Origin: an uncultured Methylococcaceae bacterium
GTDB lineage: Bacteria > Pseudomonadota > Gammaproteobacteria > Methylococcales > Methylomonadaceae
Direction: 5' to 3'
Length of the DNA: 64,000 nt
NCBI GenBank assembly: GCA_903938485.1
Contig: CAJADF010000108.1
Location: forward strand, 92,676 to 156,675
In this document: piece by piece, positions 12,848 to 63,800 of the stretch
How positions within the stretch are numbered: the stretch's first letter is position 1
How the letters are laid out: the number at the start of each line of letters is the position of its first letter
The notes under the pieces: generated by a model
Database searches by the model: none
Seen by the model: only the letters and a program-made list of their open reading frames with translations
What the model was told of the DNA's origin: nothing
Position numbers and translations under genes: made by a program

Positions 12848-12946
12848 TAGAGTTTATTTATTCTTTATTTATCAGTCTTTAGGTATGATAGTCACATTCG
12901 ATTAAATTTATTTATCGAATATTTATAATAATACTTAGGAGCTAAC

Positions 12947-13348
12947 ATGAAAAAAATCAACAAAACACCTTTAGCTACAGCAATGGGTGCTGCTTTACTT
13001 TCAACTGTTTCTGCTACTGCTGCTTATGCAGATACCAATCCATTCGGCATGACTGAACTTTCAACTGGCTACATGCAAGTTGCTGAAGCAGAAATGAAAT
13101 GTGGCGCTTCAATGAACATGGGCACAAACAACAAAACACCAGAAGGTGCTTGTGCAGGTGCTCAACACCCAACGACAGGCAAAGCTGCTGAAGCTTCATG
13201 TGGCAACATGATGAAAGATGGCAAAATGAAACCAGGTATGGAAATGGCTTGTGGCGCAATGATGAAAGGTAAAGAAGGGGCTTGTGGCCAAATGAAACCC
13301 GGTGAAACAATGAAAGGTAAAGAAGGCGCATGTGGTGCGGCTAAATAA
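12947..13348 (+). CDS. hvfA: HvfA-like secreted, Met/Cys-rich low-complexity RiPP precursor (candidate oxazolone/thioamide or bufferin-type metallophore)
   Basis: 133 aa: signal peptide, DTNPFGMTELSTGYMQVAEAE segment, then six E-x-x-C-(G/A) motifs (EMKCG, EGACA, EASCG, EMACG, EGACG, EGACG) in a Gly/Met/Lys-rich core; directly upstream of DUF692 and DUF2063 genes. Confidence 0.85.
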   Translation: MKKINKTPLATAMGAALLSTVSATAAYADTNPFGMTELSTGYMQVAEAEMKCGASMNMGTNNKTPEGACAGAQHPTTGKAAEASCGNMMKDGKMKPGMEMACGAMMKGKEGACGQMKPGETMKGKEGACGAAK

Positions 13349-13379
13349 TTATTGAAATTAACATAAATTCAATAAACTC

Positions 13380-13407
13380 GGAGGGTATATCCATACCCTC
13401 CAATTTT
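13380..13407 (+). terminator. Strong hairpin between precursor gene and MNIO gene (attenuator / partial terminator or mRNA processing element)
   Basis: GGAGGGTAT-ATCC-ATACCCTCC perfect 9-bp stem (13380-13401) followed by AATTTT. Confidence 0.7.
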
Positions 13408-13433
13408 AATATCAATATTCAATAGGTGTTCTT

Positions 13434-14285
13434 ATGGACACAACACTCGGTTTAGTTAAGGGTACTGGATTAGGTCTAAGAAGATCTCTAGTAAATCAGG
13501 TGCTCGAATCTCCCCAACCAGACATCAGTTTTTACGAAGTTGCGCCCGAAAATTGGATAACCATAGGTGGGAAGTTTGGCAAAGGTTTCCGTGCAATGAC
13601 AGAACAGCATGACTTTGTGTGTCATGGTTTATCTTTATCCCTGGGTAGTACTGATCCTCTGGATGAAAAATTTATCAATGAAGTAAAACACTTCATGAAA
13701 GAACATCAAATTAAACTTTATAGTGAGCACCTCAGCTATTGTAGTAAAAATGGCCATATGTATGACTTGATGCCCATCCCTTTTACATCAGAAGCCGTTA
13801 TACATGTTGCTAAACGCATTAAACGTGTTCAGGATATCATTGAACAAAAAATAGCTATTGAGAATGTCTCTTACTATGCAGCCCCCGGCCAAGAAATGTC
13901 AGAAATTGATTTTTTTAACGCCGTTGTGCAGGAAGCAGATTGTGATGTTTTACTCGATATCAATAATATTTATGTAAACAGCGTTAACCACCAATATGAC
14001 GCCGAAGAATTTTTAAAAGCAATGCCATTCCACCGCATTGCCTATGTGCATATTGCTGGACACCATAAAGAAGCAAATGATTTTTTAGTAGATACACATG
14101 GCGCTGACATCATAGACCCAGTATGGAAGTTACTCGGTAAGGCCTATGAACTCTATGGTGTTTTTCCAACTTTATTAGAACGCGATTTTAATCTCCCAGC
14201 ATTATCTGACCTAATAAAAGAAGTGCAGACCATTAAATCTATCCAAACCGCTTGGCAGACTGAACATGACAAACGTACAGCATAA
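13434..14285 (+). CDS. hvfB: MNIO (DUF692) family multinuclear non-heme iron oxidative enzyme, HvfB-like
   Basis: 283 aa; GTGLGLRRSLVNQVLE, FYEVAPENWI, SEHLSYC, IAIENVSYYA, CDVLLDINNIYVNSVNH, YVHIAGHH motifs of DUF692. Confidence 0.94.
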   Translation: MDTTLGLVKGTGLGLRRSLVNQVLESPQPDISFYEVAPENWITIGGKFGKGFRAMTEQHDFVCHGLSLSLGSTDPLDEKFINEVKHFMKEHQIKLYSEHLSYCSKNGHMYDLMPIPFTSEAVIHVAKRIKRVQDIIEQKIAIENVSYYAAPGQEMSEIDFFNAVVQEADCDVLLDINNIYVNSVNHQYDAEEFLKAMPFHRIAYVHIAGHHKEANDFLVDTHGADIIDPVWKLLGKAYELYGVFPTLLERDFNLPALSDLIKEVQTIKSIQTAWQTEHDKRTA

Positions 14286-15051
14286 TTCTGCCGACGAAAG
14301 CCCTATTGATTTTAAAGCCAAACAAGTAGAATTTTCTGCTTATATTAGGGATCCAGAACACAACCCCATCCCCAGCGATGTTAAACAAGATCGGATGCAG
14401 ATGTACCGACAGTTATTTTTTAATAATATTGATGGTTTTTTAGCGGGCAACTTTCCGGTCTTAAGAAAACTCCTCGACGATACCGAATGGGTAGCACTCG
14501 TACAGGATTTTTTTGCAAAACATAAATGTGAATCACCACACTTCTCAGAAATCCCTGAAGAATTTCTGTTTTATTTAGAGAATGAAAGGGATACCACAAC
14601 AGACTACCCATTCCTACTGGAACTGGCACATTACGAATGGGTAGAAATGGCATTATCCATTGCAATGGACAATAGCATAGAAATATCCAAAGTCATTGGC
14701 GTAGATTATTTATTAAATAAACACCTTAAAATTTCACCTTTGGCATGGCCATTGGTGTATCAATATCCTGTCCACAAAATTGGTCCAGACTATATACCCT
14801 TAAGTGCACCCACACCGACTACTTTTTTGGTTGTTTATCGTAATCACGAAGACGATATTAATTTTCTTGAAATTACGCCTATTACCTACCGCTTATTAGA
14901 GATTATTCAAGCGGAAGAATGGAGCTTAACAAAAAAATGTTTAGAACAAATTGCCCAAGAATCTCAACATCAAAACCCAGAAATAATTATTAATGGTGGC
15001 GTACAGATCTTAACGGATTTGTATCAGAAAGGGATTATCTGGGTACAGTAA
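14266..15051 (+). CDS. hvfC: DUF2063 / HvfC (BufC)-family putative DNA-binding-domain protein, RiPP precursor-recognition partner
   Basis: 261 aa; QVEFSAYIRDPEHNPIPSDVKQDRMQMYRQLFFNNIDGFLAGNFPVLRKLL is the typical DUF2063 N-terminus; overlaps the end of hvfB by 20 bp (translational coupling). Confidence 0.92.
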   Translation: MTNVQHNSADESPIDFKAKQVEFSAYIRDPEHNPIPSDVKQDRMQMYRQLFFNNIDGFLAGNFPVLRKLLDDTEWVALVQDFFAKHKCESPHFSEIPEEFLFYLENERDTTTDYPFLLELAHYEWVEMALSIAMDNSIEISKVIGVDYLLNKHLKISPLAWPLVYQYPVHKIGPDYIPLSAPTPTTFLVVYRNHEDDINFLEITPITYRLLEIIQAEEWSLTKKCLEQIAQESQHQNPEIIINGGVQILTDLYQKGIIWVQ

Positions 15052-15128: not shown

Positions 15129-15620
15129 TTAAAAGAATTTGCTAAAAAAGCCTTCTTCTTTCTTAACCGCTGGTGGTGCATAAGATTTAAAGCCTTTATC
15201 AATCGGTTGCTGTTGTGCGCAATGATAAGCAGCACTATTAAACTTAATTTGCAACGAACGAGGATTTTCATGTTCAGAAAGATATTTTTCAACCTCTTCA
15301 TCCGTTAAATCCTTAAGCATATAAGTTGTTACACACTCACAAGATTTAGTAAACCTAAGGGCATCTTCTTCTTTATTAACTGAGTTTTTTAACTCTCTAG
15401 CCACACATTGCGCCGCAAATGCATCATGAAATTTATGTTTCTCATCTACGGTTACAGGTTCATCTTTTGAATGATCAAATGGGTTAAACACCTCATGTAC
15501 CGGTGCCTTTGCAGTTTCTTTAGCTTTGTCTGAGTCTGAACAGCCACCTATAAGGATTGCAACGACTATACTGGTTAAAGTAGCACATAATAAATTCTTA
15601 TTAATTTTGTATGATTTCAT
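15129..15620 (-). CDS. Putative lipoprotein, Cys-containing
   Basis: 163 aa; lipobox IGGCSDS; additional Cys at CVAR, CEC and YHC. Family not identified. Confidence 0.65.
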   Translation of the reverse strand: MKSYKINKNLLCATLTSIVVAILIGGCSDSDKAKETAKAPVHEVFNPFDHSKDEPVTVDEKHKFHDAFAAQCVARELKNSVNKEEDALRFTKSCECVTTYMLKDLTDEEVEKYLSEHENPRSLQIKFNSAAYHCAQQQPIDKGFKSYAPPAVKKEEGFFSKFF

Positions 15621-31178: not shown

Positions 31179-33476
31179 TTATTTTCTAGGTGGTACTGCC
31201 ACTTTATCAGTATCCTGATATATTCCGGTTAATTTACGTTTAAACTCACCAGAAATAACCCTAGAATCCTGCTTACTTTTAACGACTCTTGGGGTAATCA
31301 ATACAACTAACTCTTGCTTAAGCTTATTGTTATCGGTTCCACCAAATAATGATCCTATCAATGGCAAATCATATAACCAAGGGATACCATTTTTACTATT
31401 ATCATTACTTTCATCAATTAAGCCACCTAATACAATAGTCTCTCCATCTTGCACAGCAACAGAGCTATTAATTTCTTTTTTATCTATAGTAGCTGAGGCA
31501 GTAACTCCTATAGTAGTTTTTATAGGCTTACTTACAATCTGACTTAATTTCATAATCACCATACCATTAGCGTTAACTCTCGGAGTTACCTCCAGAGTCA
31601 CACCTGTATCTTTATATTGAATTGAGTTTGATGTTGATAAACCTCCTAATCCAGGTGCAGATGTTGTACCTGTTTGTATAGGAATTTGTTGCCCCACATT
31701 AATTTTAGCCTTCTGATTATTTAGCACCATCAGAGAGGGTGAAGAAATCACATTCACATTACTTGCCGTGGCTTGGGCATTTAAAAGTGCTTGAACAGCT
31801 CCTGAGGTATATATAGCACTCAATCCACCCGTTGCGGCGGCAGCGGCTGCCTGGGCTGTTGCTGTCGTTAAAGAATCGCCTCCTGGCGGAGTAGAAATAC
31901 TACCACCGGCAACACCCTTATGAGCTAAATACCAAGATATACCGTACTTCAATTCATTATTTAAGGATACAGACACAACCGTTGCATCAATTAAAACTTG
32001 TAATGGCATTACATCTAATTGACTAATTACCGGCAAGATAGTTTCATAATCCTGAGCTGAAGCCACAATAATAATTGAATTATTAGCTTCATCAGCAATA
32101 ATTTTAACTTTACCAATATTAGAAATTGAACCTCCGCCAATTCCAGACTCCTTAGGTTGGTCTGCATCTTGATCAACAGCATTTGCAGCAAAAATACCTA
32201 AGTTACTTGAAAACCAGTGACTAGTATCGGATGTGGAATTATTTGAACCACCATCAACATTAGAAGTACTTCCAGAACCAGATGATCCTCCATTATAACT
32301 TGAAGAGCTAGTCCCTCCATTCGATGAACTACCACTTCCTCCACTAGCACCGACACTAGAACTCGATGAATCCTGATTTGAGAGCGTATCGGCAGTTTCC
32401 CCTGGCGCGACCTTAGCGGAAGTATCGCTACTTTTTGAACTAGAAAATATTTGATTTAGCGTAGCCGCTAATTTCTTTGCATCAACATGTTGAACCTTAT
32501 AAACGTTAACACCACCACCTGAAGCCGTATTCGCTTTATCCAATCGAGCAATCCAACTATCTACATCATCCAAATATCTAGCTTGATGAGTAACGGCTAA
32601 AATTGCATTTAAGCGTTTTATGGGTATAAATTGGAAAAAATCTCCATCACTGCCCTTACCTTTTTGAGAAAAAACGCCTTGTAACTCTTTAATAATAGTT
32701 CCAGGATCTACATGTACTAATGTAAATAAACCAAACGATCGACCTTTTAGTACATCAATATCAAAAGTATTAATCATATCAATCACTCTGGCAATTTCAT
32801 CCGCATTGCCAGACGCCACTAAAATATTGCGTTTACCATCAACATTTAAAATGGTCTTTTCTTGCACTAAAGGCTTAATAATATCAACAATATCTTGTAC
32901 GGCCACATTTTTAACTGGTATTACCCGCGTCTGAAATCCCGCTGCTTTAGCTGATAAATCAGAAGTAAATAGTGCATCTGCAGTTGGTTCTATATGGTAA
33001 ATTTTGCCATCTTTCACTAGAGCTGCATTATTCATGCGTAGCACCATTTCCAGAGCAGGCAATAACTCTTCTTTAGTTAAAGGTTCAGTTGTCTGTAAGG
33101 TAACTTTACCCGTCACTTTAGGACTTAAAACATAACTTTGTCCCAAAATATCACTCAACACCACCTTAGCGACTTCACCTAAATCTGCATCATCAAAATT
33201 TAAGCTATATGAGCCTGAACCTTTAGTTCCTAAAGACCGACTCTTTTGTGGAGCGCTTGAAACATATCTATCAGTGCCTGGATAAATCTCTTTATTAGCC
33301 TCAAGCACAGGTGCTTTATTTTCTAATTGATGAAAAACCTCATCTGAATTCTCTTTTTTTACTGGATTCAACTCTAGCTTAGCAACTTGTTTAGGTGATA
33401 ATAATTCACACCCAACAAGAGACAGACTCATTATAAGAGGAGTTAATTTGAAAATTGTTTTCGATTTTTTATTCAT
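31179..33476 (-). CDS. gspD: Type II secretion system secretin GspD
   Basis: Lipoprotein signal (MNKKSKTIFKLTPLIMSLSLVGCELL; start 33476), N-domains, secretin motif VGQQIPIQTG...YKDTGVTLEVTPRVNANG, VVLGGLIDE. Confidence 0.95.
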   Translation of the reverse strand: MNKKSKTIFKLTPLIMSLSLVGCELLSPKQVAKLELNPVKKENSDEVFHQLENKAPVLEANKEIYPGTDRYVSSAPQKSRSLGTKGSGSYSLNFDDADLGEVAKVVLSDILGQSYVLSPKVTGKVTLQTTEPLTKEELLPALEMVLRMNNAALVKDGKIYHIEPTADALFTSDLSAKAAGFQTRVIPVKNVAVQDIVDIIKPLVQEKTILNVDGKRNILVASGNADEIARVIDMINTFDIDVLKGRSFGLFTLVHVDPGTIIKELQGVFSQKGKGSDGDFFQFIPIKRLNAILAVTHQARYLDDVDSWIARLDKANTASGGGVNVYKVQHVDAKKLAATLNQIFSSSKSSDTSAKVAPGETADTLSNQDSSSSSVGASGGSGSSSNGGTSSSSYNGGSSGSGSTSNVDGGSNNSTSDTSHWFSSNLGIFAANAVDQDADQPKESGIGGGSISNIGKVKIIADEANNSIIIVASAQDYETILPVISQLDVMPLQVLIDATVVSVSLNNELKYGISWYLAHKGVAGGSISTPPGGDSLTTATAQAAAAAATGGLSAIYTSGAVQALLNAQATASNVNVISSPSLMVLNNQKAKINVGQQIPIQTGTTSAPGLGGLSTSNSIQYKDTGVTLEVTPRVNANGMVIMKLSQIVSKPIKTTIGVTASATIDKKEINSSVAVQDGETIVLGGLIDESNDNSKNGIPWLYDLPLIGSLFGGTDNNKLKQELVVLITPRVVKSKQDSRVISGEFKRKLTGIYQDTDKVAVPPRK

Positions 33477-34071
33477 TTGAATTCTCAGGATCGGCTTCAT
33501 CGGGTGCCTGACTATCTACTGGAGGCGTATTAGGCGAATTGGTTATATTGTTTTTTCTGGATGGATGTTTATTTTTTATTTTCCTTAATAATAATTCTTT
33601 TGATTGAATGCCTTGTGTAAAAATAACTCTATCAGGATATATTTCTGTCAATTTCCAACCATCAAGTTCAGCATCTTTATTAATTTTCCTGTATTTATCT
33701 TTGGGTGTCTTTGATGCAGTGCGAGAAAGAAATGCCGATAATCCATTTTGAGTAGAATAAACTCCACTTAAGTCCCATTCAAAAACAACAGGTACGAGAG
33801 CAGTATTCTGAATTTCCTCTGGAGTTGGCTCAGCAACAGGTCGTCTCCCTTTAATAAATAAAGGTCTAGCAACCAAATCGGCATAACTCTCTTCATTAGT
33901 TAAATGAAGATCAATATGAGGCATTTCATCTTGCACACTTTTAGTTTCAACCGCGCTAAGCGATGCTAAAGTAACCGATTGAGACCATAAAGCAAACAAC
34001 CATTCACCTAATATAATTAAAATACAGGCTAAACAAATTGATAATAAAAAAGATATTAATTTTGTATTCAT
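33469..34071 (-). CDS. T2SS GspC/XpsN-like inner-membrane protein
   Basis: 200 aa, N-terminal TM helix, small periplasmic domain (VVFEWDLSGVYSTQNGLSAFLSR...LDGWKLTEIYPDRVIF); position between gspM and gspD. Confidence 0.75.
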   Translation of the reverse strand: MNTKLISFLLSICLACILIILGEWLFALWSQSVTLASLSAVETKSVQDEMPHIDLHLTNEESYADLVARPLFIKGRRPVAEPTPEEIQNTALVPVVFEWDLSGVYSTQNGLSAFLSRTASKTPKDKYRKINKDAELDGWKLTEIYPDRVIFTQGIQSKELLLRKIKNKHPSRKNNITNSPNTPPVDSQAPDEADPENSNE

Positions 34072-34673
34072 TAGGCTGGATTTCTCATAAAACTAACCGC
34101 CTGAAAATTTACATTTAAATCATTACTTGCATCCATTTGCTTAGTGACTCTATTTCTTGTCGCTCGCATTGGTCTTATATCTATCTGATTAACAATAATT
34201 AATGGTTCTGATGTTTCTATTTTATATAAAACCTTACGTAATACTTGGCTATTTCCTGTCATTCTGACGCTTACGGTTATTCGCTTAAATTTTTCTTTAT
34301 TACTCACAGGCAAGGCTTGAGTACTGCTTAATTGTCCACCCGCTTCAATAATAGCTTTTTTTATAAACTCTTGCATATCAGCAGATGCTAATGCATCAGT
34401 CGTTTGCAAATTGAAATAACCCTGATTATCTTGGGCTTGATTAATATTAGCCATACTCGCCGAAATAAGGTCCGCTTTAGCCAAAATACGCTCATATTTT
34501 TGAAGCTTGAAGACTAAGTTTGTTTTAGTATCGTTTAAATCGATTGCTTTACTAATTAATGGCGTAACAATAACTAATATTATAACGAGAATAACAAAAA
34601 AAAATATTGTCAACGCCATACTGCGTTGTTGAACTGCCGGCGATGAAAAATCTATTTTTTTAAAATTAATCAT
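34071..34673 (-). CDS. gspM: T2SS GspM-like protein
   Basis: 200 aa, N-terminal TM, C-terminal ferredoxin-like region (ISVRMTGNSQVLRKVLYKIETSEPLIIVNQIDIRP); operon position. Confidence 0.8.
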   Translation of the reverse strand: MINFKKIDFSSPAVQQRSMALTIFFFVILVIILVIVTPLISKAIDLNDTKTNLVFKLQKYERILAKADLISASMANINQAQDNQGYFNLQTTDALASADMQEFIKKAIIEAGGQLSSTQALPVSNKEKFKRITVSVRMTGNSQVLRKVLYKIETSEPLIIVNQIDIRPMRATRNRVTKQMDASNDLNVNFQAVSFMRNPA

Positions 34674-35772
34674 GACTTTTAGCTTCCGACTTAGCTAAAT
34701 CAACTGTTATTTGAAAACGTTCTGTTGAAGTTACTCTATCTTGAGTCACCGGTGATGCAAAACGGGCATTTACAAATATATCAGATCCCTCGAGTGTTGC
34801 TAATAAAGCTGAAGCAGTTGGTGACTCTCCTTGTATTTGTAGATGCCCCTCTGAATATTGAACATAACTTAACGTTGTATCATCTTTTAGTAATGTGCTT
34901 AAAGTATTCAACATCTCAACCAAATCCGGTGAAGCGCTTTTTTCCTTAATTAACTGATTAGTTTCATCAATGACTGCATCGATTGTTGCTTGCATCGCTT
35001 TAACTTTTTTAGCGTCTTTCTCTAAAGAGGCCGCTTTTATACTTAATGCATCAACAGCTTGATATTCAAAAAAAACCGGCATAGCAAGTACTAATAACAA
35101 CAATAATGCAGTTAAACCTAATAATGAACCATGAACTAAACGCGGTAACTTGGCTTTTTTTTGTCTCAATCTAACAGGCAATAAGTTATATCCCTCTTCA
35201 AGATCAAAAAGATTATTTGGGGATCCATGATAATCAACATATGAGGGCGATAAACCTATTGCTTGAATATCTTCATACAAGCCATCAAGTAACTCACGTG
35301 TTGTTAATATCACCATAACTCTAATCTGTCCTGATTCATCTATTCCTGATAACTGCTTAACAGCAAAATAAACCTGTTCCGGTTTAAAGGGTGTATATCT
35401 ATCAAGCTCATAAGATACAACCTGTGATAAGTTTTCTTTAGCCGCCGCAGGTAAACTCAATTCTTTTTGTATAGCGTCCTGCGCAGACAATCGTAAAACA
35501 ACACTCGCTTTAGATAAGCGCTCATCCTTTTCATTTAGGCTTTGTAAATCAATTGCCTTATCACCACGAGCCACGCTACAAAGAAATTCTTCATGCCCAG
35601 CACAATAAAAACTTAATACAAAATGTTCGCCGTTTTTACTAACAATAATAACTCCATTACTATCATTGATGATCTGCTTTATTTTTTGAGGTATTAGGAA
35701 ATCGAGTTCACGCTTCCACCATCTTAAAAACTGCTTAAAATTTAAATCAATTGTTGAGTTCAGGTTCAGCAT
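34666..35772 (-). CDS. gspL: T2SS GspL/PilN-like assembly protein
   Basis: 368 aa actin-like N-terminal region (LSLPAAAKENLSQVVSYELDRYTPFKPEQVYFAV), TM helix, PilN-like C-terminus. Confidence 0.85.
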   Translation of the reverse strand: MLNLNSTIDLNFKQFLRWWKRELDFLIPQKIKQIINDSNGVIIVSKNGEHFVLSFYCAGHEEFLCSVARGDKAIDLQSLNEKDERLSKASVVLRLSAQDAIQKELSLPAAAKENLSQVVSYELDRYTPFKPEQVYFAVKQLSGIDESGQIRVMVILTTRELLDGLYEDIQAIGLSPSYVDYHGSPNNLFDLEEGYNLLPVRLRQKKAKLPRLVHGSLLGLTALLLLLVLAMPVFFEYQAVDALSIKAASLEKDAKKVKAMQATIDAVIDETNQLIKEKSASPDLVEMLNTLSTLLKDDTTLSYVQYSEGHLQIQGESPTASALLATLEGSDIFVNARFASPVTQDRVTSTERFQITVDLAKSEAKSHD

Positions 35773-36706
35773 ATTGTTTTACTAATAATTCACTCATAAC
35801 ATCAGAGAATAAAGACTTATTATTTATTTTAGCTTGTTGCCATTTCATTACTTGGAATGGACTCGCATCTTTACCTTCAGGCTTTTTTATTACTACATTT
35901 AAACTTGCTTTTGAGTCTCCCGCTAAAAAAGCCTCAGAGATAACAGTTACTATATTAATTTTACCGGAGGACGCACTTTTTAATCCGGGAGCCAAAGGCA
36001 TTGCTGGTAAAGGTAAATTGTTTCTAGCACTTTCTGTTCTCGCCAAAACATAGGCATCAATCATTTCCTGATCTAAACCAGAAATAGTTTGCAATACCTC
36101 TTTAGTTGCAACTTGTAAATTTACCTGTGGCTGCCCTGAATATACCGTAACTAATGGCTCTATCCATGAAAAAATAGTCTTATCCATACCCAAAACCAAC
36201 TGTAATTCTTCCACAGATTCAAATGGTTTATTTTTAGGCTCGTAAGAGAGACCCTCATCTTGATACTCTGCTTTTTCAGCACCATTAATGCTTACCAAAT
36301 CATCCGGATCACGCCAATCAATAATCGCACCCACTAACTTACTTTGGAGCTCTTCATCAATAGGTGCATTTATCATTAATTTTTGTAACAAAACTTGATC
36401 AGACTTGTTAAGATCTATTTTACCTGTTTCAGCTTCTAGTCGTATTCGTATTTTTGCATTGTTAGCCAAAATCTCATAAACACTACCATCTGCCCGCCAA
36501 GCCTTAGTAAGATCCTGATTTAATAACATCATTTCAGCTATTGCTATACCAGACTCAGCTATGGCCTTTGCTTCGGCATTATTTTTTATAATAGCAGTGA
36601 TGGTAGTCTCTCTTCGCATACTTAGAGCAAAACTCCCTGCCATTATCATCAATAAACTTAGCACCCAAAGGACTAAGACTAAGGCAACTCCATTTTGGCT
36701 TTTCAC
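35747..36706 (-). CDS. gspK: T2SS minor pseudopilin GspK
   Basis: 319 aa; NGVALVLVLWVLSLLMIMAGSFALSMRRE N-terminus, TGKIDLNKSD, IDWRDPDD. Confidence 0.93.
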   Translation of the reverse strand: MKSQNGVALVLVLWVLSLLMIMAGSFALSMRRETTITAIIKNNAEAKAIAESGIAIAEMMLLNQDLTKAWRADGSVYEILANNAKIRIRLEAETGKIDLNKSDQVLLQKLMINAPIDEELQSKLVGAIIDWRDPDDLVSINGAEKAEYQDEGLSYEPKNKPFESVEELQLVLGMDKTIFSWIEPLVTVYSGQPQVNLQVATKEVLQTISGLDQEMIDAYVLARTESARNNLPLPAMPLAPGLKSASSGKINIVTVISEAFLAGDSKASLNVVIKKPEGKDASPFQVMKWQQAKINNKSLFSDVMSELLVKQYAEPELNN

Positions 36707-37356
36707 AAGCCAACTCCAGGAGCATTGTTATTAGCACTATCAACAGGAGGGACTGTAACTTTCAAATCAACGATTATCTCAGGCCAATAAATGCCATTCG
36801 TCAATTCTATTTTTATTTTAACTAAACGAGGTAATGTTGATTTACCAACCCAATCTTCAACCCATACACCTTCACTAGCCGAGTCATCTGCACCAAAGTA
36901 TGCTATGTTAAATGCTTTTACATGCTTTATTAATGTTACCTCTTCAATTGCAGACTCATCATTTTCTAAACCAGTTCCAAAAGGCATAAGACTTACATTA
37001 ATATCGGCATCCTCACTAGCGTCATCAAAGATCACTGAAAATAATTGTAACCCCATTCGACCTGCACTAGCGGGAAAGGCTGACACAAAATGTAAAGTGT
37101 GTGAATTGGCCTGAAAGGAAAATGTCTTTTCTTCAGTCCCACCATCATTCCACAACGGCCTAGCCACAGACAAATGCTGTTGAAAAAAATTATATACAAC
37201 CGCCATTTCATTTACGTTTGTTATTTTACTTTCACCTTTTTCCCAACTATCCGCACAAATCTTTAAACTGGTAAAGAGTAAAACAACCATTATGCTTAAA
37301 AGAGTCATGCCGATAAGCACTTCAATTAACGTAAAGCCATTAGACCTTGACTTCAT
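36703..37356 (-). CDS. gspJ: T2SS minor pseudopilin GspJ
   Basis: Prepilin motif SNGFTLIEVLIGMTLLSIMVVLLF. Confidence 0.9.
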   Translation of the reverse strand: MKSRSNGFTLIEVLIGMTLLSIMVVLLFTSLKICADSWEKGESKITNVNEMAVVYNFFQQHLSVARPLWNDGGTEEKTFSFQANSHTLHFVSAFPASAGRMGLQLFSVIFDDASEDADINVSLMPFGTGLENDESAIEEVTLIKHVKAFNIAYFGADDSASEGVWVEDWVGKSTLPRLVKIKIELTNGIYWPEIIVDLKVTVPPVDSANNNAPGVGL

Positions 37357-37414
37357 TATCCGACCCAATTAAGTTCACAGGCACATTATTAAAAGCAAAA
37401 AAAACCATAGGTCA

Positions 37415-37828
37415 TTATTGTGAGCCTTTAGTCAATTTTATAGTCGTCAATTGTAATTGCCTCGTATTAAACCTATTAGCTTGCCAACTTACGATAACTT
37501 TTACTTTAAAAAGTTCAGCGAGTTTAGAAGATACATCATTATTAGCCGAATCAAAAAAATACGGTGTAACAGTAACTAACCAATCATATTTGTCATTCTC
37601 AACACCAGATTCTTCGCCTTCCCGCAAAGATGACTCTGTACCGGTCCTTGACATTAAACCCTCTGCCAATTGAACTGCAACTGTATAATCTTCTGAAACC
37701 ATTGCAGTATTTACGCCACCAGAAAAAATCTTAAGTAAAATACCTAGTGACAGCGCCAATATAGAAAAGGCAATAACTATTTCCAACAAAGAAAATCCCT
37801 GTTGTTTGCTAACGGACATTTTTATCAT
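37415..37828 (-). CDS. gspI: T2SS minor pseudopilin GspI
   Basis: Prepilin motif QQGFSLLEIVIAFSILALSLGILL. Confidence 0.9.
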   Translation of the reverse strand: MIKMSVSKQQGFSLLEIVIAFSILALSLGILLKIFSGGVNTAMVSEDYTVAVQLAEGLMSRTGTESSLREGEESGVENDKYDWLVTVTPYFFDSANNDVSSKLAELFKVKVIVSWQANRFNTRQLQLTTIKLTKGSQ

Positions 37829-38273
37829 TTAATTCAATTTGCCCTGTTAACCAATTAACATCTATTTGCCAAGACAACGCACCTTGTTTTAAGATAACTC
37901 GACCTCCAGTTGAAGAGCCGTCTGAAAAAAAACGCACTCCAGCCAAAGTTTGTCCCTTCGTTTGACTTTTTGCTGTAACAACAGTAATACCAATTGAATT
38001 TGGAATATGGTAAATCTTATCGCGTCGACTAACTTTATAGGTATTAGTTTCAAGATCAATTAGAACGCTCATTTCTTGGTGTGAGATTAAAGCCTCACCT
38101 CGCGCAAATCGTAATGCTGAGACCAAATCTCTAGCAGCAATTTTAACTTTTGTTGCATCATTTCCAGATGACAAGTTAAGACTAACAACTGAAAAACCCA
38201 AAACAATAACAAACAATACAACTATTAATTCTAATAGGGTAAAACCATTATTTTTTTTTGTAGATACAGACAT
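37809..38273 (-). CDS. gspH: T2SS minor pseudopilin GspH
   Basis: Prepilin motif NNGFTLLELIVVLFVIVLGFSVV, ALRFARGEALIS. Confidence 0.9.
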   Translation of the reverse strand: MSVSTKKNNGFTLLELIVVLFVIVLGFSVVSLNLSSGNDATKVKIAARDLVSALRFARGEALISHQEMSVLIDLETNTYKVSRRDKIYHIPNSIGITVVTAKSQTKGQTLAGVRFFSDGSSTGGRVILKQGALSWQIDVNWLTGQIELNDKNVR

Positions 38274-38298
38274 ATTGCCTCTGTGTAATAACAGAAAG

Positions 38299-38727
38299 CT
38301 ATTCCCAACTAACTATGTCTTGATCTTCGCCAGCACCGCCTTCTCTTCCATCTGAACCATACGTAAAAATATCAAACTTCCCATGTTCTCCTGGGAAAAC
38401 ATAATGGTATTCATTTTGCCATGGATCTAATGGAATTTTAGTCTTACCTAAATAAGGCCCATTCCAATGTTTTGCATTATCCGGTGCCTCAACTAAAGCC
38501 TGCAACCCTTGCTCACTAGTTGGATAACTTCCCATATCTAATTTATACATATCCAATGTGGCAGATAAATCTTCAATTTGAACTTTAGCAGCTTTAGTCT
38601 TGGACTCACCCATATGTTTCATTACTTGTGGACCCACTATGCCCGCTAACATAGCAATAATACCTAACACGACTAATAACTCAAGTAAGGTAAAACCACG
38701 TTGTCTACTATTTCTTAAATTTTTCAT
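38299..38727 (-). CDS. gspG: T2SS major pseudopilin GspG
   Basis: QRGFTLLELLVVLGIIAMLAGIVGPQVM; MGSYPTSEQGLQALV; DPWQNEYHYVFPGEHGKFDIFTYGSDGREGGAGEDQDI. Confidence 0.97.
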   Translation of the reverse strand: MKNLRNSRQRGFTLLELLVVLGIIAMLAGIVGPQVMKHMGESKTKAAKVQIEDLSATLDMYKLDMGSYPTSEQGLQALVEAPDNAKHWNGPYLGKTKIPLDPWQNEYHYVFPGEHGKFDIFTYGSDGREGGAGEDQDIVSWE

Positions 38728-38740
38728 TATTATTTTTCCA

Positions 38741-39952
38741 TTAAAATGCCAAATCATTAACACTCAAAATTGCCAGCAAAATTGATACTATAATTCCCGC
38801 AATCATTAGTCCTAAAGTAATTATTAACATGGGCTCGAGAAACGCCAATAATCGTTGGATTGCTACCCGTAATTGTTTATCATATATCGTAGCTATTCTA
38901 AGCAACATTTCTTCTAAACGTCCTGTTTCTTCACCCATTTTTATCATTTGCAGAGCCATTTTAGGCAATAAAGATTTTTCTTGTAACGCGTCAGATAAAT
39001 TCTTACCTTGCTTTAATTGAGCTTCAGCATTAGATATGGTTTCAGCTAAAACCAAATTATCAACAGTTTCTCTAACAATAACTAAAGCAGAGATAATGGA
39101 CACGCCATTACCTAATAATGTTCCCAGTGTTCGACTGATATTTGCAGTTTCTTTATTGGTAATAATAGTACCGGCTAAAGGTAATTTTAAAAAATATCCA
39201 TCCCATACTTTTTTTCTTATTGGATCTGCCATTTGATATTTCATATAACTAGAAATAACTAGAAATCCTACCAATAAAGCCCACCAATAATTTTGTAACC
39301 ACTCCGCCAAACCAACCACTATTTGTGTCGATACTGGTAGTGCTTTACCAGCACTCTCAAACATCTCTGTAAACTGGGGCACTACAAATGTCAGCATTAT
39401 AAATAATGATGCTAATGACATGATCAATAAAATAACGGGATAAATTAATGCCGTACTAACGGTTTCTTTTAACTCTTGCGAACGCTCTAAGTACTCTGCT
39501 AATCTGGTCAAAACCTCATCCAAACTACCACCCGCCTCACCTGCACGTATCATATTTAAGTAAAACTTAGTAAAAACACCTTGCTGTTGCTCTAGCGCAT
39601 CTGCTAATGACACCCCGCCTTTTACTTTTTCTAGTACTTTAGCAATTAATTTTGTTAATCGTTCATTATCTTCAGTTAAATCCATTAAGACAAATAAAGC
39701 CTTATCAATAGGTAAACCAGATTCTAACAATGTCGCTAACTCACCCGTAAAAAAAACTATGTCTTTAGAGGATAATTTTGATTTATTGGAGCCAATTCCT
39801 AGAAAAGACCTACTATTAGCTGTTGTTACTTTAATGGGTATATACCCTTCAGACTGCAAAATACTAATTAAAGTTTTATCATCAACTGCATCTCTAACGC
39901 CTTCTTCTGTTTCTCCTACACCATTAATTACTTTATAAGAAAATAATGGCAT
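38741..39952 (-). CDS. gspF: T2SS inner-membrane platform protein GspF
   Basis: 403 aa; YMKYQM...GTIITNKETANISRTLGTLLGNGVSIISAL, MIRAGEAGGSLDEVL, MIKMGEETGRLEEML. Confidence 0.96.
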   Translation of the reverse strand: MPLFSYKVINGVGETEEGVRDAVDDKTLISILQSEGYIPIKVTTANSRSFLGIGSNKSKLSSKDIVFFTGELATLLESGLPIDKALFVLMDLTEDNERLTKLIAKVLEKVKGGVSLADALEQQQGVFTKFYLNMIRAGEAGGSLDEVLTRLAEYLERSQELKETVSTALIYPVILLIMSLASLFIMLTFVVPQFTEMFESAGKALPVSTQIVVGLAEWLQNYWWALLVGFLVISSYMKYQMADPIRKKVWDGYFLKLPLAGTIITNKETANISRTLGTLLGNGVSIISALVIVRETVDNLVLAETISNAEAQLKQGKNLSDALQEKSLLPKMALQMIKMGEETGRLEEMLLRIATIYDKQLRVAIQRLLAFLEPMLIITLGLMIAGIIVSILLAILSVNDLAF

Positions 39953-39953
39953 C

Positions 39954-41639
39954 TTATGATTCCGTCGTCACACGCATAACTTCCTCTAAAGTAGTAATCC
40001 CCTCTACCACTTTAACTAAACCATTCTCATAAAGCGTTTGCATACCCTCTGAAATAGCTAACTTTTGAATAGCTCCGGCCTCTTCATGAGCCATAATTAA
40101 CTTTCTGATTGGGTCGGTCATGGGTAAAAACTCTATAATGGCCAATCGCCCACGATATCCCGTACCTGAGCACGCAGAACATCCAATTGGCTTATAAAGC
40201 ATTATTTCTGCTTTATTTGTAAATCTTTCTAAGCGCAATTCTGTAACAATTTCCGGAGCAGCCAAACCACCTTCTTTACATGAAGGACATAATTTTCTAA
40301 CTAATCGCTGGGCTAAAATGCCATTGACTGTAGAAGTTAACAAATATTCTTCCAAACCCATATCCAATAATCGCGTAACACCACCCGCAGCGTCATTAGT
40401 GTGTAACGTTGATAAAACTAAATGACCGGTAAGTGCTGATTGCACGGCGATTCTTGCAGTTTCTAAATCTCGCATCTCACCAATCATAATCACATCAGGA
40501 TCTTGCCTAACTATGGAACGTAAAGCTGAGGCGAAAGTTAATCCTATTTGGGGTTTTGCTTGTATCTGATTAATCCCCTCCATTTGATATTCAACAGGAT
40601 CTTCTACTGTAATAATTTTGCGCTGAGGAGTATTCAATTGCTTTAATGCAGCATACATAGTGGTAGATTTTCCACTACCGGTTGGGCCAGTAATTAATAT
40701 GATCCCATGAGGCATTGACAGCACATCAATAAATTGTTCTAAATGACGACCAGAAAATCCTAACTGAACAAAATCTAATACTGTATTTTCTTTATCTAGT
40801 AAACGTATTACAACGCTTTCTCCATGCATTGTAGGAATTGTTGATACCCGTAAGTCTAATTCCTTTCCAATCATTTGAACTTTTATGCGACCATCTTGCG
40901 GCAAACGTCGCTCAGCTATATTAAGTTTTGCCATAATCTTAATACGTGAGATTACTGCAGCAGTTGACTTAACATTAGGCGCATCTATTTCTTGTAAAAC
41001 GCCGTCCACGCGCAATCTAACTTTTAATGACTGCTCAAATGGTTCAATATGAATATCTGATGCCCGTGTTTCAATTGCACGTTGCATAATCAAATTTACC
41101 ATTTTAATTACTGGGGCTTCACTCGCTAGATCTTTTAAATGTTCTAAATCTTCTTCGCCTAAATCATCTATAGCTAAATCATCAATCAATTTATCCATCT
41201 TCGAACGATCTTCACCGTATTGAACATCAAGTGCTGCATCAATTTCTGAAAGTAAACCCACCTTTACGTCAATTGATTTCCCAATCATCAAGCTTAGTGC
41301 ATTAATTGTGAATGCGTCCTCGGGATCCATCATTGCTACAGTTACTTGATCCTCAGAAGAACTTAAACCAATAAGATGATAATTTTTTAAAAAACGTAAA
41401 GACACCTCTTCAGGTAATTGTCTTTCAATTGGATATTGATCTGGCATTATTTTTTCGAATTGCCCAGAATCGGCAAAGGCATCTGCAACATCTAACTCAG
41501 AACATAAACCTAGCTTTACCAATAATTGTGGCAAACTCTCCGCAACAGAAGTTTTTTGAACGCGCTCAACTTTTTTTAATTCTGAAGCAGAAAGCTTGCC
41601 TCTTTCCTGTAATGTTTTAAACAAAGACTGATAAATCAT
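39954..41639 (-). CDS. gspE: T2SS ATPase GspE
   Basis: 561 aa; LITGPTGSGKSTTMYAAL, VEDPVEYQMEGINQIQ, RQDPDVIMIGEMRDLETA, Zn motif CPSC...CSAC. Confidence 0.97.
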   Translation of the reverse strand: MIYQSLFKTLQERGKLSASELKKVERVQKTSVAESLPQLLVKLGLCSELDVADAFADSGQFEKIMPDQYPIERQLPEEVSLRFLKNYHLIGLSSSEDQVTVAMMDPEDAFTINALSLMIGKSIDVKVGLLSEIDAALDVQYGEDRSKMDKLIDDLAIDDLGEEDLEHLKDLASEAPVIKMVNLIMQRAIETRASDIHIEPFEQSLKVRLRVDGVLQEIDAPNVKSTAAVISRIKIMAKLNIAERRLPQDGRIKVQMIGKELDLRVSTIPTMHGESVVIRLLDKENTVLDFVQLGFSGRHLEQFIDVLSMPHGIILITGPTGSGKSTTMYAALKQLNTPQRKIITVEDPVEYQMEGINQIQAKPQIGLTFASALRSIVRQDPDVIMIGEMRDLETARIAVQSALTGHLVLSTLHTNDAAGGVTRLLDMGLEEYLLTSTVNGILAQRLVRKLCPSCKEGGLAAPEIVTELRLERFTNKAEIMLYKPIGCSACSGTGYRGRLAIIEFLPMTDPIRKLIMAHEEAGAIQKLAISEGMQTLYENGLVKVVEGITTLEEVMRVTTES

Positions 41640-57856: not shown

Positions 57857-60817
57857 ATGACAGTTTCTACTTTCAACGTAATTGAAGCTTTAACCAAATT
57901 TAAAGCTAATCAAATTAAAGCACCAATTATTATTGCTGGCGTTAGCAACAATATTGCTGCGAACTTTGATAAATTAAACAAATATGCTAGTAAAATTCAA
58001 TCTATTGATTTATCCGACACAACCCATTCTTTATTGCTCAATGCAAGCCAGATTAACAATGATTCTGTATTAATTAAAAAAATTAACAACACAATAACTG
58101 TTACAGATAATTACAAGAACATCCAAAAAACAGCTAATTTATCGGCATTATTAAACTTAGGTGATAAATTAACAAGCTTAACTGAAACTGGCCCAATAAC
58201 TTCTGTTACCTTAACTTCAAAGCAATACAACAATACTTTTACCAGCAAATTTACTAACTTTAAGGCAACAGTATCAGATGCCACAGAAACTTTTTTTGCT
58301 AAATTAGCGTTAGACAAGAATGTCTCAGATTTTAGTATAAAAGATAACGCAAGCAACATTTCAGACATGTTGGACGCTTTACAAAAACTAGGTTCAAAAC
58401 TAACAAAAATCACTCAAACTGACAAAACAAGGCCCATTGCTGTAACTGTCGATCAGTTAAAAAATGATGCAGGGACTTTGGAAAAACTTTCAAATAAATA
58501 CACACTAACCATCAGTGATGTAACGCTAAATAATTTAGCATCAGTTTTAAATGATAGACATGTCACAAGTATAAGTATTTCTGTAAATACTACTGAACTA
58601 ACAAACAACATGAATATCTTTACAAAAAAAAGCAACCACATATCCGAGATTATTTTAAAAGATAGTACCTTCCATATCGCGGCTAATTTTGACTTACTGA
58701 AAACTTTAAATAATAAATTGTCTGGCATTATTCAAACAGACCCGAATAGTTATTTAACGATTACAGCTGAACAATTACTCAACAATGCAAATACCATTGC
58801 TAAAATTCTGACAAATTATTCACTTTCAGTTCATGATGCCAGCTTAAATAATATTAAAAGTTTCTTAACTAATTCAACGATTAACAATGCTTTACATGCT
58901 GATATTTATATCTTGGATAATTCTGCAAGCATTAATACCAACTTAGATGCTATTGAAAACTATACAAACTCGAACATCATCAACTTAAAAGACATCTCAT
59001 TTACGGACACCTCAGCAGAACTTATTGTTAGTTCAACTCAATTTTTTGATGACTCAGATGCTTTAAATTTAATTTCTGGCGATTATCATTTATCAGTAGG
59101 TGGCGTAAATACCGATGATATCGCTACTGTGTTAAAAAATTCTCATGTAGACAGTATTTCTATTTCTGATACGGGGGATAATATTGCTTATAGCATAAAT
59201 ACACTAAACACTAACATAAAACTTATCACTACAATAACCATAACAAATCCACAAACCGCCCTAGAATTGACTTCTAAGCAATTTTTTGAAGATAGAGCCT
59301 TAATAAATTTATTTAGGGGTTCTTATAATCTATCGATAAGTGACAGTCTTATCTCAGATATCCCTGATACCATAAAAAACAGTAATGTAACCTTAATGAC
59401 TGTGACTGATTACACATCCAATATAACTAATAACTTGGATTTACTTTATGCTCTGGGCAACAAATTAACAGAGATAAATCAATTAGATCCAGATAAGCCC
59501 ATAGAAATAAATGCGAGTCAATTTAGCAAATATACTAATTTCTTGAACAACACTATCCAAACAAATTATTCACTAAATGTGCTTGATGTTAGTACAGTAA
59601 ATCTCAATTCGATTATTAATAATAGCAATGTAAACACAATTACAGTTTATGACTCTGAGAGCAACATATTAAAAAATATAGATAATCTGGAAAATTATAT
59701 TGATCAAATCATATCGATATCATTCACTAATACCAACATTACCCCTGTTACGCTAACATCTGATCAATTCGTTAACGATGTTGATGCTTTAGATAAAATT
59801 AATGCTCTATCGCTCACCGTTAATACAGTGGCCGCAAGTGATATTAATTATATTGCCCATAAAAATTACGTAAATCATATATCTTTAGTCGATACAGCAG
59901 ACCAAATTGGTTTATACATTGATAACCTGAATAATAATTTAAATAAAATAACCAGTATCTCAATCAGCGATTACCTAGACAATACTGTCACTATTACCGC
60001 CAATCAATTAATAACCGATAAGACAACACTAGATCTTCTAAAAACTAATTACACCCTGGCTATTATTAATGCACCCAGTAATTTCAGCATTCCAATCGCT
60101 TACACTACACATTTTAAATCAAACTCTTTTATAACCGTGACCGATAGCTCTTCTGCAATCAGTTCAAACCTAACCTCCCTTAACTTGCTTAATTCAAAAT
60201 GCACAGATCTAACGGGTATGGGAATCTCTATAACACAAACTGATCCTGAAACGCCCTTAACAATTACGGCCAATGAATTAAAAAATGATAGTAACGTGCT
60301 TAACTCACTTATCCAATCGAATAACGCTACGATATTTAATATAGATTTAGGTAGTTCAAAAACATCTTTAACCCTTGATGGTGCTAACGGTCATGATAAT
60401 TTCATTTTTCATACCAATAGTACTGGCACACCGTCGGCAACTAATATTGCCACTATCAATAATTTTAATGGTCAAGATAAAATTAGTTTTTATGAAACTA
60501 CTTCGCCGACCCAACTAACGCCTTTTTCCATTGAAGCGGGTTTAGCCTCAATTAACACTTCTAGTGGCACTGGCATCGTTAGTTTTAATCCAACCGATGA
60601 TACATTACCCAAACAAATAATCGCTGTAGAAAAGGCTATTGCTTTATCTAACAATCTAGGTGCCGGGCATTTTGCTATATGGAATAACGGGAGTGATAGC
60701 TTCCTGCTTATCACGGACTTAGACCCCAAAACCACCTCTGGTGATGATTTAATTAAATTTGTCGGAATGGATGTTAGTCACCTACAATTAAGTAATGGTG
60801 TCATTTCTTACACATAA
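57857..60817 (+). CDS. Large repeat protein with RTX/type I secretion-like C-terminal domain
   Basis: 986 aa; about 10 degenerate 80-90 aa units (hxVxDxxxNIxxNLDxLxxxxxKLxxIxQTDxxxxLTITAxQLxxDxxxLxKIxxNYSLxVxDV), then LTLDGANGHDNFIFH...ATINNFNGQDKISFYE... resembling T1SS substrate C-termini. Confidence 0.85.
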   Translation: MTVSTFNVIEALTKFKANQIKAPIIIAGVSNNIAANFDKLNKYASKIQSIDLSDTTHSLLLNASQINNDSVLIKKINNTITVTDNYKNIQKTANLSALLNLGDKLTSLTETGPITSVTLTSKQYNNTFTSKFTNFKATVSDATETFFAKLALDKNVSDFSIKDNASNISDMLDALQKLGSKLTKITQTDKTRPIAVTVDQLKNDAGTLEKLSNKYTLTISDVTLNNLASVLNDRHVTSISISVNTTELTNNMNIFTKKSNHISEIILKDSTFHIAANFDLLKTLNNKLSGIIQTDPNSYLTITAEQLLNNANTIAKILTNYSLSVHDASLNNIKSFLTNSTINNALHADIYILDNSASINTNLDAIENYTNSNIINLKDISFTDTSAELIVSSTQFFDDSDALNLISGDYHLSVGGVNTDDIATVLKNSHVDSISISDTGDNIAYSINTLNTNIKLITTITITNPQTALELTSKQFFEDRALINLFRGSYNLSISDSLISDIPDTIKNSNVTLMTVTDYTSNITNNLDLLYALGNKLTEINQLDPDKPIEINASQFSKYTNFLNNTIQTNYSLNVLDVSTVNLNSIINNSNVNTITVYDSESNILKNIDNLENYIDQIISISFTNTNITPVTLTSDQFVNDVDALDKINALSLTVNTVAASDINYIAHKNYVNHISLVDTADQIGLYIDNLNNNLNKITSISISDYLDNTVTITANQLITDKTTLDLLKTNYTLAIINAPSNFSIPIAYTTHFKSNSFITVTDSSSAISSNLTSLNLLNSKCTDLTGMGISITQTDPETPLTITANELKNDSNVLNSLIQSNNATIFNIDLGSSKTSLTLDGANGHDNFIFHTNSTGTPSATNIATINNFNGQDKISFYETTSPTQLTPFSIEAGLASINTSSGTGIVSFNPTDDTLPKQIIAVEKAIALSNNLGAGHFAIWNNGSDSFLLITDLDPKTTSGDDLIKFVGMDVSHLQLSNGVISYT
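60350..60817 (+). other. C-terminal secretion-domain segment of the first repeat protein
   Basis: Repeat pattern stops; LTLDGANGHDNFIFHTNSTGTPSATNIATINNFNGQDKISFYE...GHFAIWNNGSDSFLLITDLDPKTTSGDDLIKFVGMDVSHLQLSNGVISYT. Confidence 0.6.
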
Positions 60818-60844: not shown

Positions 60845-63800
60845 ATGGCTATTATTTCTAAATTCGATGTTGGTACTGCATTATCGACATATAACAGCAA
60901 CCACAATATGGCCTCCGTTAATATTACCGATAGCAGTGATAATATAGCCACAAACCTAGGTGCATTAACCCCTTTAGTAACGGCAGGAAAAATTATCCAT
61001 ATTAATCAAATGGATAGCCCTATACCTTTAACGATTAATGACATACAATTATTAAAAATTAATGCCAGTGTCTTTAGGAAAATATCCAGTAATTACACTT
61101 TAGTTATTACTGATAGCGCTAACAACATTACTGGCAATTTAGATACTTTAAAAAGCTACATCAGAAAGATAACGAGCATTAATCAAACGACCACTAGTCC
61201 GCTTACATTAACCGCCGCTCAGTTAAATACATATAAAGCGGTTATCACTAAAATAGTGGATGATTACAGCCTGATTGTCACAGAAACTCCCACATTAAGA
61301 CTCATAACATTATCAACTAATCCCCGTATTTTGTCTTTTGGTATTAAAGATACTGCTTTTAACATTAATAAGTTATCTAGCTTAACAGCCATAATAAATT
61401 TAGACAGTAAAGTCACTAGTATTACACAAACAGGTGCACCCAAAAATATCGTCTTAACAGTTAGTCAATATAGTCCAAACTTAACCCAAAAATTTACTAA
61501 TTTTAAAGCCACAATATCCAACGCGAATACATTAATCATTACAGATTTACTAACCGATTCAAATATCGATAACCTTAATATTAGAGATAGCTCAAGCAAC
61601 ATTGCAACTAGCTTAGACACACTACAAGCATTGGGAATTAAAGTAACAACTATTACACAAACAGGTACCAGTACAGCATTAACAATTACCGGAAACCAGT
61701 TTATTAATGATTCTTTAACGCTGAATAAAATTCAAGGACGTTATAGTTTAATAATTAATGATGCCTCTGCCGCACTAACAGCAACACTTATTGCAAACAC
61801 ACATGTCAAAACCTTTACTGTAAGTGATACAGCGTCTAATATTCATAATAACTTATCTGCGTTATTAAGCGCTGGCACTAAACTGACTAGCATTACCGAA
61901 TCCGGCCCTGTTGCGCCAATCACCATGCTTGCAAATCAATACAATAAATTTTTCACTGGTAAATTGACTAATTTTACAGCGACTGTTTTAGATGCACCTA
62001 CGCGCTTGGTAGCATCGTTAAATACTGATGCAAAGATATCGAGTATCACTGTCAAAGATAATACAAAAAACATTTCTAGTAACCTCGATATCTTACAAGC
62101 CATTAACGCTAAATTAATTAGTATCACCCAAACTGATTTAACAACACCTCTAACAATCAGATTTGCTCAACTAACTAATGACACCAGTGCAATTGAGAAA
62201 ATTTCTATATCAAATCCAACTTATCAATTAATAGTTATAGGCGTTTCAGTAACTAATATTAGATCGACTTTATCTAATGAGCATGTCAAATCAATTTCAG
62301 TATTAGACTCAGGCAATAATATTGCCAATAATCTAAATAGCATTCAAGATTTCATTAATTCTCACTCTTCTAACTCTTATATCAGTAGAATCGTTTTATC
62401 GGATAGCCCAACCACATTAACAATAACCGAATCTCAATTAAGCCAAGATAGTTCTGCTCTGGAACTAATTACTAGTAATGGATATATGATCCTTAATGAC
62501 GTAACTATCATCGACAATGGTTATTCTTTGATTATTACTGAAGTGCGCATTGCTGATTTAGCTTCAATTATCACTAATCCTTTAGTCAACCGTATTGCTA
62601 TAACAGATACTGCTCTAAATATTACTGAAAATATAGCTACAATTAAGGAAAATTTATCTGTAATAAATAGCATTACCATTTCAGATAACCCAACTGCATT
62701 AACTCTCACTAAAGCTCAGCTTTCTGAAAACCCCGATTTATTAGCATTGATTTTAGGTCCCTACACTCTAAAAATTACAGATGTCCTTGTAAGTGACATT
62801 AATACAGATCTAGAAAATCCATTAATTACTAATATCAGTATTACTGATGAATCAACCAATGTCCTTTCAAATCTAGACTTATTGAAAACCAATATTAGTT
62901 TAATTACTGCAATTAATTTATTAGATACTCCTGAAAGCATTACCATTAGTGCTACACAGATTACTAATTATCTAGATATATTTGCACTTCTAAATACCTA
63001 CCCATTTTTAGTCACTGAAGTTTCAATTGCTGATATTTCTACCGTATTAGCGATTACATGGGTAACTAGTCTTTCCATTTTAGATAGTGCTGATAATATC
63101 CAAACTAATTTAGATACGTTGCAAACAGAAGTTGTTGCTGGGCATATCTCGAGTATTACAACTCCAGATGTAAAATCATTAGCAATTTCTTATACCCAAT
63201 TTACTAATGTACCAGACGCTTTAAACATACTTAATAGAGACAGTTTCACTTTCACGGTAAGTGATGTTGCCATTGCGGATAGCGCTACTGTTCTAGATAC
63301 GGCTGGAGTTATAAGTATTGCCATTTTGGATAACGCTAGCAATATCCAATCTAATTTGGATACTCTACAATCTGAGGTTGTGGCTGGGCATATCTCTAGT
63401 ATTAAAAGTACAGACGCTACATCATTAGCAATTACACATACTCAATTTACTAATGATCTATCTGCCTTAACCTTACTTCAAGCGAATGGTTTCACTTTCA
63501 CGGTAAGTGATGTTGCCATTGCGGATAGCGCTACTGTTCTAGATACGGCTGGAGTTATAAGTATTGCCATTTTGGATAACGCTAGCAATATCCAAACTAA
63601 TTTGGATACCCTACAATCTGAGGTTGTGGCTGGGCATATTTCAGGAATAACGATTAGTAACTCTCCACAAAACTTAACTATCAGTTATACACAATTAATT
63701 AATGATGTAGACGTTTTATTTTTATTAAGTTCTAGTTCTTATACACTGACTGTCAGCAATGTGCCTGTAGCTAATATTAATGATACTTTAGCTGCAAATG

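Follow-up and report, generated by a model that had tools for sequence, protein, structure and literature searches.

The window, by which we mean the whole 64,000-nucleotide stretch that was analysed, carries an hvfABC-type locus on its forward strand: a 133-aa open reading frame is followed by a DUF692 and a DUF2063 gene, the last two overlapping by 20 bp. A preliminary description had reported this arrangement, and its coordinates proved exact. The features are as follows.

12884..12890, forward strand: putative extended -10 promoter element TATGATA, within tctttaggTATGATAG
12896..12920, forward strand: inverted repeat ATTCGAT-n11-ATCGAAT, five bases after TATGATA; 5′-UTR hairpin or operator
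12947..13348, forward strand: hvfA-type RiPP precursor gene, 133 aa, with six E-x-x-C-(G/A) sites; product predicted to be disordered
12947..13033, forward strand: Sec-type signal peptide region, residues 1–29, judged from the sequence by eye
13037..13078, forward strand: leader signature NPFGMTELSTGYMQ, residues 31–44; HvfA leader NPFxMxELxxGYM
13199..13288, forward strand: Met-rich module CGNMMKDGKMKPGMEMACGAMMKGKEGACG, residues 85–114, with three Cys and seven Met
13434..14285, forward strand: hvfB, MNIO (DUF692) enzyme, 283 aa; NF003818 and PF05114 matches
14266..15051, forward strand: hvfC, DUF2063/PME1 partner with NGO1945 C-terminal domain, 261 aa; NF050145, PF09836 and PF22106 matches
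15129–15620, convergent: gene for a putative lipoprotein, following hvfC; present in 37 of 80 related loci and without a confident family assignment

The hvfA start codon is preceded by an AGGAG sequence. The upstream neighbour is nth in 62 of the 80 related loci, and neither this gene nor the convergent lipoprotein gene is obviously related in function to hvfABC. No DoxX (HvfX) gene adjoins the cluster, and genome-wide there was only a sub-threshold, stop-containing match; since published clusters carry DoxX in various combinations, it appears to be optional in HvfABC systems.

Upstream region, enzymes and host

Relatives have the putative -10 element ahead of hvfA as well, in many cases in the form TCTTTGGTATGATAG, and its arrangement with the inverted repeat was found there again. 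A search of the 2.5 Mb host genome for the two elements together gave a single match, and the control gave none. In 23 sequences, 92% of the cells of the repeat arms pair, compared with at most 45% when the arms are slid against each other, and three pairs have changed on both sides, with 17 of 500 shuffles attaining the same covariation score. This supports a conserved dyad, with which an RNA hairpin and a DNA operator are both compatible. A known RNA element was rejected as a candidate, as an Rfam search of the hvfA leader region gave no match.

Profile searches, which the preliminary description had suggested as a check, placed the DUF692 protein inside the MNIO enzymes as an HvfB (440.8 bits against the NF003818 equivalog model, cut-off 360; 351.7 bits against PF05114) and its partner as an HvfC (301.6 bits against NF050145, cut-off 142, with PF09836 and PF22106 also matched). 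The DUF692 protein scored below the cut-offs for BufB (271.2, cut-off 310) and MbnB (TIGR04159, 47.3, cut-off 325), and also below those of the ApyH and ChrH models. The locus had been described as HvfABC/bufferin-like; the HvfABC half of that label stands, whereas the bufferin half was dropped with the missed BufB cut-off. Judged by their sequences, both enzymes are standard members of the HvfB and HvfC families. Structurally solved relatives are 3BWW and MbnB for HvfB, and 3DEE for HvfC. The iron-binding residues of MbnB are known (PMC8888699), and HvfB keeps all of these ligands (H64, H99, E143, D175, N178, H206, D220 and E249), plus H222. It also has the proposed catalytic base D251 and the substrate contacts R16, R17 and F252. 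Such Arg-Arg and Phe contacts mark the enzymes of Lys-Cys captophorins (PMC13097082, PMC13419390), and the residue after the catalytic Asp is indeed the Phe of the Lys-Cys type, not the Asp of the Cys-Lys type.

Within the genome collection, the host is related to Methylobacter, Methylovulum, Crenothrix and Methyloglobulus, which identifies it as a gammaproteobacterial methanotroph of their family, probably Methylomonadaceae, and pmoA is present on the same contig as hvfABC. The 99.95% complete host genome has a single MNIO gene, and as this is of HvfB type, the host has no MbnB. With a pMMO methanotroph as host, the question is no longer just one of protection against copper, but of how copper is handled around pMMO.

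The precursor and its Met-rich module

The precursor is putatively exported, as had been proposed before, on account of an evident Sec-type N-terminus (MKKINKTPLATAMGAALLSTVSATAAYA) that is visible by eye. Searches of Pfam and NCBIfam gave no family match for it, including no DUF2282 or MbnA match, and its AlphaFold2 model has a pLDDT of 45, hence the predicted disorder. Nevertheless, the leader is invariant or almost so in the precursors of relatives, and it aligns with HvfA leaders directly upstream of HvfB-type genes across Gammaproteobacteria, with a common PF...GY motif. Each of the six Cys (residues 52, 69, 85, 102, 113 and 129) is preceded by Glu at -3 and followed directly by Gly or Ala, the residues at -1 are K, A, S, A, A and A, and the core contains 13 Met in 91 residues, so that the motifs, the prevalence of Ala/Ser before Cys and the Met density of the preliminary description were all confirmed. 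Lys precedes Cys at one of the six sites, and none reads EGKCG. A chance origin of the Glu pattern was ruled out, with Glu at -3 of every Cys in 0 of 200,000 composition-preserving shuffles of the 91-residue core. Furthermore, Glu occupies -3 for 168 of the 173 Cys in 28 precursors of relatives, which were picked through HvfB alone and thus independently of the precursor sequence.

Compared with other lineages the precursor is atypical. The median Met fraction was 0.028 in 29 class-level HvfA cores, with 89% of Cys following Lys (the Glu -3 frequency of this set is circular, such sites having served as selection criterion), and 0.050 in other families of the order, with 91% of Cys following Lys. 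In the family of the host, the median Met fraction was 0.121 (n = 79 cores) and Lys precedes 11% of Cys (68 cores with an adjoining HvfB). A pattern lying within the Met module had helped to collect the 79-core set, and we therefore repeated the count on the 28 precursors found through HvfB alone, in which 11 of the 173 Cys follow Lys and 157 follow Ala or Ser. Rank-test p-values for these core comparisons treat related species as independent and are not to be relied on. The earlier characterisation of the precursor as atypical is thus valid against other lineages and does not hold within the host's family, where both properties are the norm. Met richness as a general HvfA trait was rejected on the difference between the class-level and family medians; it is not unique to the family either, with single lineages reaching a Met fraction of 0.14, which weighs against the reading proposed below.

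The module has the 30-aa consensus CGxMMxDGKMKxGMExxCGAMMKGKEGACG, and was detected in all 68 loci that have HvfA beside HvfB, in one copy (exact pattern) in 62, two copies in five and three copies in one; in each of these 68 relatives the module-bearing precursor adjoins hvfB. Five of its Met columns are invariant over the 68 loci, a sixth is 94% conserved, and the seventh, at module position 16, is not conserved. The pN/pS ratio was 0.13 for the module, 0.16 for hvfB and 0.21 for the leader; the pN of the module is biased downward, since a peptide from within it had served in part to collect the 68 loci. With a module pS of 0.59, the peptide is conserved despite divergent DNA, which argues that selection acts on the peptide and, judged from these ratios, that the module is under purifying selection. 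A profile of the module matches 121 of 133 family genomes, and 68 genomes representing the order's other families gave no match. When 369 genomes were drawn from the whole class, it matched the host alone; the one other family genome in this draw (G253) is without the full module. Among the 12 family genomes without the full module, 11 still have HvfB beside a different, Met-containing HvfA. The module is a lineage trait and not noise. We also considered it as a plain correlate of methanotrophy, and rejected this because other pmoA-bearing families of the order are without it. An extreme form is a 240-aa HvfA (L026:2523-3242) with extra GGMDMKGG repeats and far more Met than the precursor of the window.

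Proposed product and copper handling

The most likely product of the locus is a periplasmic peptide of HvfABC type ('captophorin') that is modified and binds copper. The preliminary description had allowed for either oxazolone/thioamide or thiooxazole groups on Cys; the class has been assigned 5-thiooxazole (PMC13097082, PMC13419390), so only the latter is retained. This group is present in oxazolin, gonophorin and fontiphorin, copper binding was seen for fontiphorin and gonophorin (PMC13097082), and oxazolin is described as copper-binding (PMC13419390). By analogy with these relatives, HvfC would presumably bind the leader of the precursor and present it to HvfB, whose multi-iron centre would use O2 to convert the Cys of the E-x-x-C-(G/A) sites to 5-thiooxazoles. 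After Sec export the polypeptide would remain disordered in the periplasm, with its thiooxazole groups binding Cu(I), and in the module, with its seven Met and three Cys, the thioethers would probably add ligands or tune exchange. We hold this reading as a whole with good confidence, given that its weakest step is put forward as no more than probable. Of its parts, the assignment to the HvfABC family is close to certain, copper binding by the peptide is likely by analogy, and thioether ligation by Met is a tentative suggestion. Thiooxazole formation, export and copper binding follow characterised relatives, and the role of Met, together with buffering or delivery near pMMO, has less support than these.

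The locus resembles those of oxazolin (HvfABC of Haemophilus influenzae) and fontiphorin (FonABC of Fontimonas thermophila), both Lys-Cys captophorins, in its HvfB/HvfC-family enzymes, its A-B-C gene order, the exported precursor, the Cys flanked by Glu at -3 and Gly at +1 and the conserved active-site contacts, and H. influenzae HvfA has six modified Cys, the same number as present here. It differs from them in that Ala/Ser replaces Lys at -1, some sites have Met at -2, the Cys are spaced and not arranged in AEGKCGEGKCG doublets, the seven-Met module is present and a DoxX gene is absent. The absence of DoxX and of any exact EGKCG weighs against the captophorin reading. Buf_EGKCG/oxazolin precursors with 17-residue repeats (PMC12452194) share the enzyme cluster, Sec signal and repeated Cys motifs, but their 17-residue unit has two EGKCG where the 30-residue module has three Cys and seven Met, and a β-helix is described for them, in contrast to the predicted disorder of the present precursor. 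Bulbicupramide (MmrABC of Microbulbifer) likewise involves an MNIO and a DUF2063 protein conserved through a bacterial group, with a copper-chelating product; its host has no special copper need, and no Met-rich module is mentioned in the part of the report on it that we covered. Methanobactin (MbnABC) has in common MNIO chemistry on Cys, copper and methanotroph hosts, and differs in MNIO subfamily, partner, precursor and product, as well as in its import genes, which are lacking here.

The modified peptide could have a nutritional and not a protective role, as a store or carrier that keeps Cu(I) available to pMMO in the periplasm or the intracytoplasmic membrane space and takes over part of what methanobactin does in other methanotrophs, which we regard as possible though doubtful. 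Such a role would suit a pMMO methanotroph with a single MNIO, a family in which hvfABC is near-universal and to which the Met module is confined, and the high copper need of methanotrophs, which, as the authors of the Microbulbifer study remark, sets them apart from that organism (PMC12538549). However, the precursors in other pmoA-bearing families of the Methylococcales, whether of the ordinary EGKCG kind or different, are without the module, non-methanotrophs commonly have related MNIOs (in 84 of 185 class genomes at E ≤ 1e-60), the cluster contains no uptake receptor or importer, and known captophorin systems respond to copper excess. A still more specific proposal, that thiooxazole and thioether ligands of the conserved three-Cys, seven-Met module jointly hold and pass on Cu(I) for pMMO, in a family-specific ribosomal reservoir that evolved for methane oxidation where methanobactin is absent, seems to us distinctly improbable.

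It is rather unlikely that the Met residues are not copper ligands at all, but form a flexible oxidisable linker or a scavenger of O2 or peroxide surrounding ordinary thiooxazole sites, in a peptide that works as in other lineages. Captophorin pathways have been linked to oxidative stress (PMC13097082), and Met-rich cores also occur sporadically in other lineages, both of which would fit such a function; the near-invariance of six Met columns while some neighbouring columns vary, and the variation in length and sequence of the linkers outside the module, argue against it.

The residues flanking Cys are, by comparison with FonBC, within or near the range of a characterised enzyme pair. FonBC accepts Ala before Cys (EAACG, EGACG) and Ala at +1, while Glu or Phe before Cys or larger residues after it give poor or blocked conversion (PMC13097082). 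Ala and Lys at -1 are thus covered, with Ser lying outside the variants described, and as FonBC accepts Ala at -1, the Lys typical of Lys-Cys precursors appears dispensable for turnover by this pair. The sites EMKCG, EGACA, EASCG and EMACG combine changes in ways that go beyond the FonBC variants, which weighs against the captophorin reading. HvfBC might convert only the EGACG/EMKCG-like sites, with the other thiols binding Cu(I) or zinc as unmodified Cys. With FonBC, conversion of some non-canonical motifs was incomplete, and altering the surroundings of Cys lowered turnover (PMC13097082); in many relatives there are also Cys that lack the Glu at -3. Nevertheless, every Cys of the window's precursor keeps this Glu and a small +1 residue, and with the acceptance of Ala at -1 by FonBC, partial modification is about as unlikely as the preceding alternative. 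Finally, a methanobactin or bufferin (DUF2282/Buf2) system in place of HvfABC, which the shared MNIO superfamily and the weaker BufB and MbnB matches might suggest, was rejected as extremely improbable on the curated cut-offs, the lack of a DUF2282 or MbnA match, a partner that is HvfC and not MbnC, and the Phe after the catalytic Asp.

To our knowledge, copper management for pMMO in gammaproteobacterial methanotrophs without methanobactin is not well settled, with CorA and MopE being partial answers. The hvfABC locus is a specific candidate for nearly the whole family, and as its enzymes are of a characterised type, it is directly testable. If the captophorin reading is correct, copper sites of mixed Met/thiooxazole type can arise in the evolution of 5-thiooxazole peptides, and the substrates naturally used by HvfB enzymes extend to those with Ala/Ser before Cys. 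The enzymes and the general chemistry were known already. In the literature covered by our search, which excluded most subscription journals, we found no description of the locus in methanotrophs, nor of a Met module shared across a family or of precursors that have lost the Lys ahead of Cys.

Related loci and other features of the window

In nine relatives hvfA is located apart from hvfBC, on another contig (L081, L086, L087, L091, L095, L104, L106, L107, L110 and L111, with hvfB loci L172–L180). In L081 and L086, a divergent cluster with a large gene starts about 1.8 kb upstream of the separate hvfA. The large gene of L081 encodes a heavy-metal P-type ATPase, which gives weak support to a metal role, and L086 has a second, one-Cys HvfA-like gene just downstream of hvfA. 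Some Methylococcales have a second HvfB paralogue (L129, L195, L196 and L197; 53–57% identity to HvfB of the window) with a different short precursor, several of these having EGGCSGKMPEGGCSG-like repeats, which lacks the GYM leader end and possibly represents a second captophorin type. In another family of the order (L130 and L131), a more distant MNIO (~36%) follows a putative lipoprotein in which ACKG is repeated (NACKGMNACKG) and which may be a bufferin-like precursor of the Cys-Lys type with a lipobox.

Elsewhere in the window, the 986-aa protein encoded at 57857–60817 contains degenerate repeats, matches no family of Pfam or NCBIfam, and is similar at its end to secreted surface proteins that bind calcium. 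At 63095–63639 there is a further tandem repeat, of 246 bp, in the DNA, and the minus strand carries Type II secretion-like genes (GspD, GspE, GspF, GspK and GspL-like) at 31179–41639.
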